Source: Nonomuraea cypriaca (GTDB lineage: Bacteria > Actinomycetota > Actinomycetes > Streptosporangiales > Streptosporangiaceae). Taken from it: a stretch of DNA of 64,000 nt. Shown in pieces: positions 11,029-16,777 of the stretch (the stretch's first letter is position 1; the number at the start of each line of letters is the position of its first letter). Made by a program: the position numbers and the translations under genes. The DNA lies in assembly GCF_015645445.1 (NCBI RefSeq), contig NZ_JADOGI010000010.1, forward strand, positions 1-64,000, given 5' to 3'. The notes under the pieces were generated by a model, which had not been told where the DNA came from, made no database searches, and worked only from the letters and a program-made list of their open reading frames with translations.

Positions 11029-11709
11029 ATGCTCATCGCCGGCTTCCCCGCAGGGGCCTTCCAGACCAATTGTTACGTTGTCGCGCCTGCCGCCGGCGAG
11101 GAGTGTGTCATCGTCGACCCAGGTCAGGACGCCACCGAGGGCGTCGAGGAGCTGGTGCGCGAGCACCGGCTCAAGCCGGTCGCGGTCCTGCTCACCCACG
11201 GCCACCTCGATCACGTCTGGTCGGTGGCCCCCGTCTGCGGCGCGCGTGACGTCCCCGCGTGGATCCACCCGGAGGACCGCCACCTGCTGAGCGACCCCGC
11301 CGCGGGCTGGTCCGACACGAGCGCCCAGCTGTTCGGCGGGCTGACCCTGAGCGAGCCCGACGACGTGCGCGAGCTGTCCGACGGCGCCGTGCTGAAGCTC
11401 GCCGGCCTGGAGCTCGTCGTCGACCACACGCCCGGCCATACCAGGGGGTCGGTGTCCTTCAGGTCGCCCGGCGACGGGGTCATGTTGGCAGGGGACCTGT
11501 TGTTCGCCGGCTCCATCGGACGCTCTGATCTTCCCGGGGGCGACTACCCGACGATTCTGCGCAGCCTGGCTACCAAGTGTCTGCCGCTGCCTGACGATAC
11601 GGTCGTCTTGCCGGGCCACGGACCACAGACAACGATCGGCCGCGAGCGTGCTACCAACCCATACTTGAAGGAAGCCGCACCGCACGCCGGTCCCACACGA
11701 GGGATCTAA
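11029..11709 (+). CDS. MBL-fold metallo-hydrolase (glyoxalase II-like)
   Basis: The 226-residue protein is a metallo-beta-lactamase-fold hydrolase with the metal site THGHLDH (HxHxDH), the later HTPGHTRGS histidine, [13 protein letters not shown] and a C-terminal GHGPQT. This motif set is that of hydroxyacylglutathione hydrolase-like enzymes. In actinobacteria, which lack glutathione, the real thioester substrate is unknown. ATG 11029 gives the typical family start [18 protein letters not shown]; a longer in-frame extension upstream runs through the divergent promoter region. The stop overlaps the hisS start by one base (TAATG), so the two genes are coupled, as commonly seen in actinobacteria. 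Confidence 0.88.
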
Positions 11710-12968
11710 TGAGCTTCCAAGCACCGAAGGGCACCTTCGACTGGCTGCCACCCCGCTCCGAGCGGGTGCTGGCCGTACGCGAGGCGCTGGCCGCGCCGCT
11801 GCGCCGGGCGGGCTACGGCTACATCGAGACACCCGTCTTCGAGGACACCCAGCTGTTCGCCAGGGGCGTAGGCGAGTCGACCGACATCGTCTCCAAGGAG
11901 ATGTACACCTTCCCCGACAAGGCGGGCCGCTCCCTGACGCTGCGCCCCGAGGGCACGGCCTCGGTGGTGCGCGCCGTGCTGCAGCACAACCTGCACACCG
12001 GCCAGCTCCCGGTGAAGCTGTGGTATTCGGGAAGTCAGTTCCGCTACGAGCGCGCGCAGAAGGGCCGCTACCGCCACTTCTGGCAGGTCGGCGCCGAGGC
12101 GCTCGGGTCCGAGGATCCGGCGCTCGACGCCGAGCTGATCCTGCTCGGCGCCCGGGGCTTCGCCTCGCTGGGCCTCAAGAACGTCACGTTGCTGCTCAAC
12201 TCGCTCGGCGACAAGTCCTGCCGTCCCGCCTACCGGGCGTCGCTGCAGGAGTTCCTGCGCGGGCTCGACCTCGACGCGGACACCAGGGCCAGAGTCGACA
12301 TCAACCCGCTGCGGGTGCTCGACGACAAGCGGCCCGAGGTGCGGGCCCAGCTGGAGGGCGCGCCGCTGGTGGTCGATCACCTGTGCGCGGCCTGCAAGGC
12401 ATACCACGAGGAGGTCCGCGCGCTGCTGAGCGCCCGCGGGATCGCGTTCGAGGACGACCCGAGGCTGGTGCGCGGGCTCGACTACTACACGCGCACCACG
12501 TTCGAGTACGTGCACGACGGGCTCGGGTCGCAGTCCGCGGTGGGAGGCGGCGGGCGCTACGACGGGCTCAGCGAGATGCTCGACGGCCCGCCGCTGCCCA
12601 GCGTCGGGTGGGCGCTCGGCGTCGACCGCGCCATCCTGGCCATGGAGGCCGAGGGCCTGCTTGACGACGCGGCACAGAGCCGCGTCCAGGTGTACGGTGT
12701 CCCGCTGGGTGACGACGCCCGCCGCCGGATGTTCCTGCTCATCGACGAGCTGCGCCAGGCGGGGGTCAGCGCCGACATGGCGTTCGGCGGCAAGGGGCTC
12801 AAAGGTGCGATGAAGGGCGCCGACCGCTCGGGCGCCGCGTACGCGCTGATCCTGGGCGAGCGTGACCTCGCGGCCGAGGCCGTGCAGGTGAAGGACCTCA
12901 GCACCGCTGAGCAGACCGAGGTGCCGCTGGCCCAGGTGGTCGATGTCTTGAAGGGAAGAGTGCGGTGA
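11709..12968 (+). CDS. hisS: Histidyl-tRNA synthetase
   Basis: This class II enzyme charges tRNA-His. The 419 residues show motif 1 region ([16 protein letters not shown]), motif 2 ([16 protein letters not shown]), the histidine-specific signature [14 protein letters not shown] near residue 253, motif 3 (GGRYDGL ... GWALGVDR), and a C-terminal anticodon-binding domain. The length is as expected. It is coupled to the upstream hydrolase gene and followed by an unusual tandem repeat leading into aspS. The last 25 bases of hisS resemble the 3' end of each repeat unit. Confidence 0.97.
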
Positions 12969-13021
12969 CCGGCACCACGTCCCCCGCCGTTCTTCCGCCA
13001 TCCGTTTGAAGGGAAGGTTCG

Positions 13022-13093
13022 GTGATCCGCGAGTCAGCACGTGCCGGGTCGTCGCCGCCCTTCCGCCATCCGTTTGAAGGGAAGGTTCGGTGA
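13022..13093 (+). CDS. Mini-ORF 1 of the hisS-aspS leader array
   Basis: A 23-codon frame starts at GTG 13022 and reads [10 protein letters not shown]...EGKVR. GAAGGGA lies upstream at ribosome-site distance, and its TGA overlaps the next unit's GTG by four bases (GTGA). Its first residues resemble the AspRS start MIRTHTAGS. Translation is possible but not shown. Confidence 0.35.
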   Translation: MIRESARAGSSPPFRHPFEGKVR

Positions 13094-13161
13094 TCCGCGA
13101 GTCAGCACGTGCCGGGTCGTCGCCGCCCTTCCGCCATCCGTTTGAAGGGAAGGTTCGGTGA
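13090..13161 (+). CDS. Mini-ORF 2 of the hisS-aspS leader array
   Basis: This is an identical copy of mini-ORF 1, coupled to it by GTGA and to mini-ORF 3 in the same way. The perfect identity indicates very recent duplication or homogenisation of the array. Confidence 0.35.
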   Translation: MIRESARAGSSPPFRHPFEGKVR

Positions 13162-13229
13162 TCCGCGAGTCAGCACGTGCCGGGTCGCCACCGCCCTTCC
13201 GCCATCCGTTTGAAGGGAAAGTTCAGTGA
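13158..13229 (+). CDS. Mini-ORF 3, overlapping the aspS start
   Basis: This third unit has four substitutions relative to units 1 and 2; it encodes SPP in place of SSPP-type sequence around residue 10 and ends EGKVQ. Its TGA (13227-13229) overlaps the aspS GTG (13226-13228), so ribosomes finishing it could restart on aspS. Confidence 0.35.
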
Positions 13230-14956
13230 TCCGCACGCATACCGCCGGGTCGCTCCGGAAGGAGCATGCCGGGCAGCAGGTGACGCTCGCAGGATGGGTG
13301 GCCCGCCGCCGTGATCACGGCGGCGTGGTCTTCATCGACCTGCGTGACGCCTCCGGCTCGGCGCAGGTGGTCTTCCGCGAGGAGGACCACGCCCACGACC
13401 TGCGCGCCGAATACTGCGTGCAGGTCGTCGGCCAGGTGAGGGTGCGCCCCGAGGGCAACGAGAACCCCGACCTGCCCACCGGCGCCATCGAGGTCGTGGC
13501 CGATCGGGTGGAGGTGCTGAGCGAGGCGGCGCCGCTGCCGTTCCCGATCGAGGGCAACGTGGGGGTGTCGGAGGAGGCGCGGCTCAAGTACCGCTACCTC
13601 GACATCCGCCGCCAGCAGGTGGCCCACGCCGTGCGCACCCGCTCCAAGGCCACCTACCTGGCCAACGAGGTGATGAACGAGCTGGGCTTCGTCTACGTCG
13701 AGACGCCGACCCTGACCCGCTCCACGCCCGAGGGCGCGCGCGACTTCCTCGTCCCCGTGCGCCTCCAGCCGGGCAGCTGGTACGCCCTGCCGCAGTCGCC
13801 CCAGCTGTTCAAGCAGCTCCTGCAGGTCGCAGGCCTGGAACGCTACTACCAGCTGGCCAAGTGCTACCGCGACGAGGACCTGCGGGCCGACAGGCAGCCG
13901 GAGTTCACCCAGATCGACGTCGAGATGTCCTTCGTGGACCAGGAGGACGTCATCGAGGTCGGCGAGAAGCTGATCGGCCGGCTGTGGAGGGAGATCGCCG
14001 GCCACGAGCTGACGACGCCGCTGCCGCGCATGACGTACGCCGACGCGATGGCACTCTACGGCTCCGACAAGCCGGACCTGCGCTTCGGCCAGGAGCTGGT
14101 CGAGATGACCGGCTACTTCGCGGACACCTCGTTCCGCGTCTTCCAGGCCGACTACGTGGGCGCCGTGGTGATGCCGGGCGGGGCCTCGCAGACCCGCAAG
14201 GAGCTCGACGGCTGGCAGGAGTGGGCCCGCTCGCGCGGCGCCAAGGGGCTGGCGTACGTGCTGGTCCAGGAGGACGGCACGCTCGGCGGCCCGGTCGCCA
14301 AGAACCTGTCGGCCGAGGAGATCGCGGGGCTGGCAGGCAAGGTCGGGGCCGGGCCGGGCGACGCGGTGTTCTTCGCCGCCGGCGCCAGGCACGCCTCGCG
14401 CGAACTGCTCGGCGCGGCCAGGCTGGAGATCGGGCGGCGCTGCGGGCTCATCGACGAGTCGAAGTGGTCGTTCCTGTGGGTCGTGGACGCGCCCATGTTC
14501 GAGGAGGACGGGGAGGGCGGCTGGACGGCCGTGCACCACCCGTTCACCGGGCCGAAGCCGGAGTGGGCCGACAACTTCCAGGACCACCCCGGTGAGGCGC
14601 TGGCTTACGCGTACGACATGGTCTGCAACGGCATGGAGATCGGCGGCGGCTCCATCCGTATCCACCGGGCCGAGATGCAGCAGCGCGTGTTCGACGTGCT
14701 CGGCATCTCCAAGGAGGAGGCGGAGAGCAAGTTCGGCTTCCTGCTGGAGGCATTCAAGTACGGTCCTCCGCCGCACGGCGGCATCGCCTACGGCTGGGAC
14801 CGGATCTGCATGCTGCTGTCGGGCGGCGAGTCGATCCGTGACGTGATCGCGTTCCCGAAGACGGCCTCCGGCTTCGACCCGCTCACGGGCGCGCCCACGC
14901 CGATCACCACCGACCAGCGCAAGGAGGCGGGCGTCGACGCGGCGCCCAAGCCGTAA
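13226..14956 (+). CDS. aspS: Aspartyl-tRNA synthetase (bacterial type)
   Basis: AspRS charges tRNA-Asp (and tRNA-Asn where the indirect amidation route exists). The 576-residue protein has an N-terminal OB-fold anticodon domain ([23 protein letters not shown]), motif 2 ([21 protein letters not shown]), the large bacterial insertion domain, and motif 3 ([13 protein letters not shown]). The ribosome site GAAGGGA and the GTG start belong to the last unit of the upstream mini-ORF array, so initiation may depend on translation of that array. A strong bidirectional terminator follows. Confidence 0.97.
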
Positions 14957-16102: not shown

Positions 16103-16582
16103 ATGTTCGACGAGATCCTGGGCCTGCCCGCCCATCCCCTGATCATCCACTTCGCCGTCGTGCTCACCCCCCTGCTCGTGGCGGTGTCGGCGGTCTACGC
16201 GGTGGTGCCGCGCTGGCGTACGTACGTGTCCTGGGCCGTGGTCCTGCTCTCCCTGGCCGGGCCGGCGGCGGTCTTCGCGGCCAGGCAGAGCGGCGAGAGC
16301 CTCAGAGCGGCCCGCTTCGCCACGGCGGACGGCCAGCTCGCGGCCCGCATCACCACGCACCAGAGCTTCGCCAACCCGCTGCTGCTGTCGGTGATCGGGC
16401 TGGCCGTGGCGGCCCTGCTGCTCGTGTACGCCACCCACCCGGCCCGCGACTCGATCGGGCGCGACAGGTTCGGCCGCCCCGCCTCGCTGGTCCTGTCCGG
16501 CTTGACGGTGGTGCTGGCCGCGGTGGCCGGCTACTACGTCTTCCGCGCGGGGGACTCCGGCGCGCGAGCCGTATGGTCGTAG
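16103..16582 (+). CDS. DUF2231-type four-helix membrane protein
   Basis: The 159-residue protein begins FDEILGLPAHPLIIHFAVVL, the hallmark of DUF2231 membrane proteins, and has four hydrophobic helices (about residues 12-32, 38-56, 92-112 and 128-148). The role of this family is not established; some members sit near haem or redox proteins. ATG 16103 is supported by AAGGAG six bases upstream; ATG 16082 would place that site inside the gene. Its stop codon TAG lies inside the first unit of a 49-bp tandem repeat. Confidence 0.8.
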   Translation: MFDEILGLPAHPLIIHFAVVLTPLLVAVSAVYAVVPRWRTYVSWAVVLLSLAGPAAVFAARQSGESLRAARFATADGQLAARITTHQSFANPLLLSVIGLAVAALLLVYATHPARDSIGRDRFGRPASLVLSGLTVVLAAVAGYYVFRAGDSGARAVWS

Positions 16583-16774
16583 GCGCACAGTCCGCTGCCT
16601 GCGGTGATCCGCTGGACGCGGCCCACCGTAGGCGCACGGTCCGCTGCCTGCGGTGATCCGCTGGACGCGGCCCACCGTAGGCGCACGGTCCGCTGCCTGC
16701 GGTGATCCGCTGGACGCGGCCCACCGTAGGCGCACAGCCGGTTATCCGCGGCGGGCATCTGGACGCGGGCCACC
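16579..16774 (+). repeat. Four 49-bp tandem repeats upstream of rarA
   Basis: Units lie at 16579-16627, 16628-16676, 16677-16725 and 16726-16774. The first three differ by a single base; the fourth keeps the exact length but is diverged in the middle. Each unit includes GCGGTGATCCGC, a small GCGG/CCGC hairpin. The array starts inside the stop codon of the DUF2231 gene and ends three bases before the minus-10 element of rarA. It could hold repeated protein-binding sites or be a simple minisatellite. Confidence 0.9.
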
Positions 16775-16777
16775 GTG

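Follow-up and report, generated by a model that had tools for sequence, protein, structure and literature searches.

The hisS and aspS genes of Nonomuraea cypriaca are separated by a tandem array of mini-ORFs, which in our best reading probably arose by frame-conserving duplications of the hisS–aspS junction that kept stop–start coupling of the two genes intact. The array was found in the window, i.e. the whole stretch of 64,000 nucleotides of N. cypriaca DNA that was analysed, from an assembly of 587 contigs. Both genes and the array lie on the forward strand. The hisS gene (11709–12968; Pfam tRNA-synt_His) encodes a HisRS of 419 amino acids and ends with the TGA at 12966–12968. Downstream of the array, aspS (13226–14956; Pfam tRNA-synt_2, tRNA_anti-codon and GAD) starts with GTG and encodes an AspRS of 576 amino acids.

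TRF detected one 68-bp tandem array (12985–13234, 3.7 copies, 96% matches). It contains unit 1 (13022–13089), unit 2 (13090–13157) and unit 3 (13158–13225), each with a mini-ORF of 23 codons (13022–13093, 13090–13161 and 13158–13229). The TGA of every mini-ORF overlaps the following GTG, and that of the last one lies on the aspS GTG at 13226. Units 1 and 2 are identical at 68/68 positions and unit 3 matches them at 64/68. The Shine–Dalgarno-like motif GAAGGGA occurs within the hisS tail (12950–12956) and again at 13008–13014, 13076–13082, 13144–13150 and 13212–13218, the latter four with a spacing of 7 nt to the GTGs at 13022, 13090, 13158 and 13226, respectively. This confirms the first-pass annotation, which had described three such units, the first two of them identical, and a last mini-ORF overlapping the aspS start. 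What it had missed is a degenerate unit 0 of 57 bp (12965–13021), which joins hisS to the array. The 14-codon frame of unit 0 (12965–13009) opens at the GTG at 12965 overlapping the hisS stop and closes at the TGA at 13007–13009, leaving a gap of 12 nt, not an overlap, to the GTG at 13022. The chain of overlaps thus holds for units 1–3, whereas the first link is a gap. Two things lift the array above chance: the repeat is almost exact, and 17 of the 18 other species with an insert also have the chain from GTGA to GTGA.

A second self-overlapping chain runs in another frame, with TTG starts at TTTGA; it enters aspS out of frame, and no ribosome site was seen upstream of these starts. The string GGTGATCC at the unit starts (13021–13028 and its repeats) is presumably complementary to the 3′ end of 16S rRNA. 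Scans of the array revealed no promoter (sigma-70-like sites being the only ones sought), no terminator-like site and no known regulatory RNA at the Rfam gathering score, the three sub-threshold matches all lying within aspS.

We compared the junction in the window genome (G000) and 53 other Nonomuraea genomes. In all 54, hisS adjoins aspS; 35 show the direct 4-nt overlap (GTGA) with no insert and 19 carry an insert. In 17 of the 18 other carriers an unbroken chain of one or two overlapping mini-ORFs leads from the hisS stop and ends exactly at the aspS GTG, and the aspS of the carriers has retained a GAAGGGA and GTG of its own. The 18th (G042) has a frameshift in hisS that removes the hisS stop, so that hisS continues in frame across the insert and its end again shares 4 nt with aspS. 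After the frameshift, its HisRS (L019) is about 20 residues longer by way of the former insert. The sequence of the mini-ORFs is not conserved between species. A PP dipeptide recurs in the peptides of many carriers, e.g. SSPPF, SLPPF and PLPPL; it might be a pause site or simply reflect high G+C.

Unit lengths in the carriers are 47, 59, 62, 68, 71 and 74 bp, all of them 2 mod 3, and G013 has an additional 63-bp unit that is read in frame into the following unit. With G042 left out, 23 of 25 units are 2 mod 3; the two exceptions, both 0 mod 3, are unit 0 of the window genome (57 bp) and unit 1 of G013 (63 bp). A length of 0 mod 3 would fuse the units, 1 mod 3 would uncouple them and 2 mod 3 keeps the chain. 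The earlier proposal that a length of 68 bp, not being a multiple of 3, prevents fusion and keeps coupling was therefore half right: units of 0 mod 3 would indeed fuse but do exist, and the decisive property is 2 mod 3, not merely a non-multiple of 3. In all 18 carriers considered, including the window genome but not G042, the last unit is 2 mod 3. Parsimony on one aspS tree requires at least seven changes of last-unit length; the chance that all seven keep the frame is (1/3)^7 = 0.0005, a figure that assumes even odds for each remainder and treats parsimony changes on an imperfect aspS tree as independent.

On the hisS+aspS tree, five changes account for the presence of the insert, and on the aspS tree six, with carriers and non-carriers intermingled on both. 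A single clean origin was rejected by the AU test (p 0.0003 for hisS+aspS, p 0.016 for aspS). Losses by direct-repeat collapse, recombination and repeated gain are indistinguishable on these trees. The identity of the HisRS C-terminus to that of the window falls into two bands of about 79–90% and 68–76% (L005–L061), which suggests recombined hisS alleles within the genus; the two-gene tree may thus be a mosaic, and the AU test mixes loss, recombination and gain.

Outside the genus, we took 27 loci from 27 other genera of the family, out of 67 other genera sampled. In 25 of these loci hisS was found beside aspS, with a 4-nt overlap in 24. One other genus (G078) has an independent insert of 89 bp, which is again 2 mod 3 and whose frame opens at the hisS stop and reaches the aspS start. 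Both genes fell within the stretch in 26 of 80 named loci (overlap in 20, insert in five, another gap in one), while in the remaining 54, nearly all of them from Streptomyces, the stretch was without aspS. The named insert carriers are Nonomuraea maritima, N. jiangxiensis, N. solani, N. candida and [Actinomadura] parvosata; since their insert strings match those of genus genomes, they have probably been counted among the genus carriers already. The four Nonomuraea species each have a single unit. Sphaerisporangium perillae (L276) has a hisS–aspS gap of another kind, 274 nt long.

The ends of the units point to where they came from. The head of the unit aligns to the head of aspS in the same genome and its tail to the tail of hisS, as the first-pass annotation had seen. 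G006 is the best case: head and tail alignments cover nearly the whole unit, where some 35 nt can be traced to the head of aspS and some 40 nt to the tail of hisS (p 0.003 each, the floor of 300 shuffles). Among the 18 last units, the head match beyond the shared GTGA reached p <0.05 in seven (G000, G006, G013, G023, G050, G004 and G048), all of at least 68 bp and none of 47 to 62 bp, and the head match beyond codon 3 reached p ≤0.05 in eight. The tail match had p <0.05 in 14 of 18, where the tail includes the ribosome site and is possibly kept alike by function alone; all these p values are uncorrected. On these alignments, the longer units are of junction origin. The simplest origin would be a tandem duplication across the junction, which places the head of the downstream gene before the tail of the upstream one, and for this reason a mini-ORF would begin like AspRS and end like HisRS. 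The two identical units of G006, like units 1 and 2 of the window genome, fit the suggestion that the array is young or kept uniform; the other two multi-unit arrays, in G013 and G024, do not.

Elsewhere in its own genome the unit was not found: all 23 candidates were scored, and the four matches all lie in this array. Scoring the best 17 candidates per genome across the genus gave 19 matches in 15 of 54 genomes, all of them at hisS–aspS. With matches confined to this junction, a dispersed repeat family was rejected at that sensitivity.

We suggest the following course of events. Ancestral hisS and aspS would have shared a GTGA overlap, probably read by termination–reinitiation, in which a ribosome terminating at a −4 overlap restarts on the next frame. 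A tandem duplication across the junction would have placed a second stop–start overlap between the two genes. Where the duplicated length was 2 mod 3, the aspS head would come to lie in frame with the hisS tail, yielding a chimeric mini-ORF that could take over the ribosome at the hisS stop and deliver it to the aspS start. Copy number may then have shifted by more rounds of unequal exchange, and unit length by indels; nearly all of the forms seen keep the chain. The copied junction would bring its own Shine–Dalgarno site, stop and start, by which the chain would be kept.

Huber et al. (2019, PMC6728339; 2023, PMC10666635) describe termination–reinitiation at 4-nt overlaps. Reinitiation falls by roughly 40–80% at gaps of 13–14 nt in E. 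coli and Haloferax and is nearly abolished in Haloferax at about 20 nt from stop to start (PMC10666635), the distance given for E. coli being 38 nt; a review (PMC12548453) cites other work with less distance dependence. From this loss with distance, an insert of about 45–260 nt lacking a reading frame would tend to uncouple aspS. PMC10666635 also states that the final 15 nt of the upstream gene are enough for coupling, so that a copied junction could carry coupling along. The hisS–aspS pair resembles such systems in its same-strand GTGA overlap, present in the 35 insert-free genus genomes and the 24 loci of other genera, and in the GAAGGGA of the upstream tail that precedes each GTG of the window array. 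It differs in that the overlap itself is present several times, so that reinitiation would occur more than once on the way from hisS to aspS. There is also a likeness to short uORFs and bicistronic designs, in which, as described in PMC12548453, a short frame brings the ribosome to the next start: here too, the role of the frame would be ribosome delivery. The hisS–aspS units are, in contrast, natural, chimeric and tandem, and lie between two genes and not in a 5′ leader.

At the sequence level, the frame rule, copy-number variation and recurrence at other operons are established. We infer that ribosomes use the mini-ORF chain, and the frame is presumably kept because selection favours coupling; the peptide would not be its target, and regulation need not be. 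With its 12-nt gap, the first link of the window genome probably couples less well than an overlap would, so some aspS translation may begin anew at one of the repeated GAAGGGA/GTG sites. A hairpin sequestering the Shine–Dalgarno site (CCCTTC...GAAGGG) and opened by the translating ribosome was rejected as a general feature, as p was >0.1 in 19 of 26 units. Low values were obtained for G026 (0.002), the last unit of G013 (0.014), G048 (0.018) and G004 (0.026), and the three 68-bp units of the window gave 0.066–0.070.

A pattern search over 341 genomes of the family matched 10 genomes, eight of them at hisS–aspS. One match lay inside an open frame (G231) and was taken as chance. The remaining one (G032, L095) consists of two 29-bp units, encoding MIRTASNGVR-stop and MIRTVSKGAR-stop, between a histidine kinase and a response regulator gene. 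For this gene pair 54 genomes matched and 30 loci were taken, of which 24 show a plain 4-nt overlap and one a 1-nt overlap. G018 (L206) has its own independent insert of 47 bp with a chained mini-ORF. Three further loci (L190, L196 and L214) have a 10-nt gap, where a 5-codon frame of 14 nt, again 2 mod 3 (VIGVR-stop, MNGVR-stop), chains the kinase stop to the regulator start; perhaps these frames are just the shifted kinase tail.

In addition, we scanned 2.06 Mb for stop–start repeats, namely the window, 800 kb more of G000 and 400 kb each of G049, G036 and G030. Eight pairs at seven sites had an identity of at least 19/28, compared with 0.54 expected from shuffled pairing. Six of the seven sites are 2 mod 3: after a solute-binding (modA-like) gene in G000, after mreC, after a glycosyltransferase gene and at hisS–aspS in G049, after an ABC ATPase gene in G036 and after a 4Fe–4S protein gene in G030. 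The seventh (L116 in G000) is 1 mod 3 and its downstream gene is doubtful. The upstream genes were named by Pfam; 80-residue pieces of the downstream genes had no Pfam match, so that the names modB and mreD for these are our own reading. The hisS–aspS array of the window itself was missed by the scan because unit 0 is too degenerate.

Among candidate pairs of any similarity, 198 of 751 (26%) were 2 mod 3, and 17 other duplications over gene stops, used as a control, were distributed 6:6:5 over 0, 1 and 2 mod 3. The difference between 6/7 sites and 5/17 controls gave a Fisher p of 0.018 (0.035 without hisS–aspS, 0.003 when the three sites found outside the scan are added), figures that treat sites as independent and rest on a control set with a different identity threshold, some repeats inside coding sequence and one array counted on both strands. 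Another genus (G190) yielded a single candidate over 400 kb, with a length of 0 mod 3.

At a junction of a glycosyltransferase and an unassigned membrane protein gene (L155:6280) a hypervariable insert of net 26 to 82 nt is present in 19 of 54 genomes. Of these inserts, all >20 nt, 13 are 2 mod 3, four are 1 mod 3 (70, 76, 76 and 82, lengths that two units would give) and two are 0 mod 3; counted as 14 distinct lengths, nine are 2 mod 3, three 1 mod 3 and two 0 mod 3 (binomial p 0.017), all lengths being alignment spans and not insert sequences. The other 35 genomes differ by multiples of 3 except for +5 and +11, both 2 mod 3. The array after the modA-like gene (L108:5167–5298 in G000) has units of 30, 30, 38 and 30 bp. 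Of 30 loci taken, both ends could be located in 26 relatives; none of these has the array, their upstream stop reading CTGA in 22, ATGA or GTGA in four and TTGA in none; the array is thus peculiar to G000 and a weaker example. At the mreC junction the spans in relatives were mixed and left uncounted. Tentatively, we propose that tandem duplication of stop–start overlaps may be a general, recurrent source of chimeric ribosome-passing mini-ORFs, filtered for 2 mod 3, in these actinobacterial operons.

The first-pass annotation had suggested that a translational relay could set the aspS/hisS ratio. The frame needed for a relay has been kept through several length changes, although unit 0 of the window genome breaks the strict chain. 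In its regulatory form, in which unit number is selected and each link loses or adds a share of the ribosomes, we consider the relay unlikely. Each unit has its own GAAGGGA and GTG, and copy number varies as it might in a tuning device: comparison with relatives, which the annotation had called for, showed that the 17 other chain carriers have between one and three units each and that 35 genomes have no insert. Such variable presence and copy number fit tolerated variation at least as well as regulation. The majority of genomes manage without units, carriers being scattered among non-carriers on the trees, and the array holds no known regulatory RNA that we could find. Moreover, junctions built in this way are also present in unrelated operons, and this suggests a mode of mutation.

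Slightly less credit is due to the view that the array is a neutral minisatellite, in which aspS translation uses only the last GAAGGGA/GTG and the frames are accidental. Open frames are cheap at high G+C and hence common, array expansion is typical of minisatellites, and the start signals retained by aspS in carriers would allow such a bypass. A neutral array is, however, difficult to reconcile with last units that stayed 2 mod 3 in 18 of 18 carriers through at least seven changes, or with junction duplications elsewhere mostly obeying the same rule while other gene-end duplications do not.

Mycobacterial interspersed repetitive units (MIRUs), reportedly first described at senX3–regX3 by Supply et al. 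in 1997, are recognized by homologous copies dispersed over many loci of a genome. PMC12548453 presents them as apparently mobile elements inserted at start codons, where they probably disturb the gene little, with an ORF coupled at −4 nt. At senX3–regX3 the MIRUs measure 77 and 53 bp, in a region reported to have promoter activity (PMC4213456). The hisS–aspS units are MIRU-like in lying between operon genes, in a length of 2 mod 3, shared with both senX3–regX3 elements, and in the 4-nt overlap of their ORF with its neighbours, seen in units 1–3 of the window and in all but one of the 18 other carriers, but not at the 3′ side of unit 0. Insertion of such a mobile element at the GTGA site is nevertheless very improbable. 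Dispersed copies were found neither in the window genome nor, among the best 17 candidates per genome, in the genus, and the unit ends match the two genes that they separate, just as the units at other operons, unrelated to these, match the ends of those operons. Since it was not found dispersed and resembles the genes at hand, we do not file the array as a MIRU. Least credible of all, to the point of being nearly dismissible, are attenuation-like leader peptides that sense tRNA charging: short ORFs, many with a PP pair as a possible pause site, do precede a tRNA synthetase gene, but each 23-codon frame of the window has one His and no Asp codon instead of a run of cognate codons, the sequence is not conserved between species, and neither a terminator-like site nor an Rfam match at gathering score was found.

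Frame-conserving duplication of the junction, the reading that we prefer, was not met in the literature searched (titles and abstract openings, with subscription journals mostly outside), neither as duplication of a stop–start junction nor as an origin by local duplication, filtered by length mod 3, that recurs across several operons within one genus. One model (PMC3887535) derives overlaps by point mutation and leaves indels out. If duplication of stop–start overlaps is indeed general, MIRU-type elements and some small operon proteins could originate in this way. Our reading also provides MIRU-like mini-ORFs with an origin that is local and non-mobile, and small proteins and C-terminal extensions in operons, such as that of the G042 HisRS, with a possible route. 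The junctions would also represent a natural experiment on translational coupling, in which tens to hundreds of bases were inserted and mostly lengths that keep the hand-over are found, and they make selection on coupling at 4-nt overlaps testable gene by gene.

A further tandem array of the window (16578–16776; 49 bp, 3.2 copies) extends from the stop of a DUF2231 gene up to a gene for an MgsA/RarA-type ATPase and also contains GGTGATCC. Unlike the hisS–aspS unit, it has relatives elsewhere, another one in the window genome and numerous ones across the genus. Among the 13 matches listed for G006, 11 fall in the repeat part.
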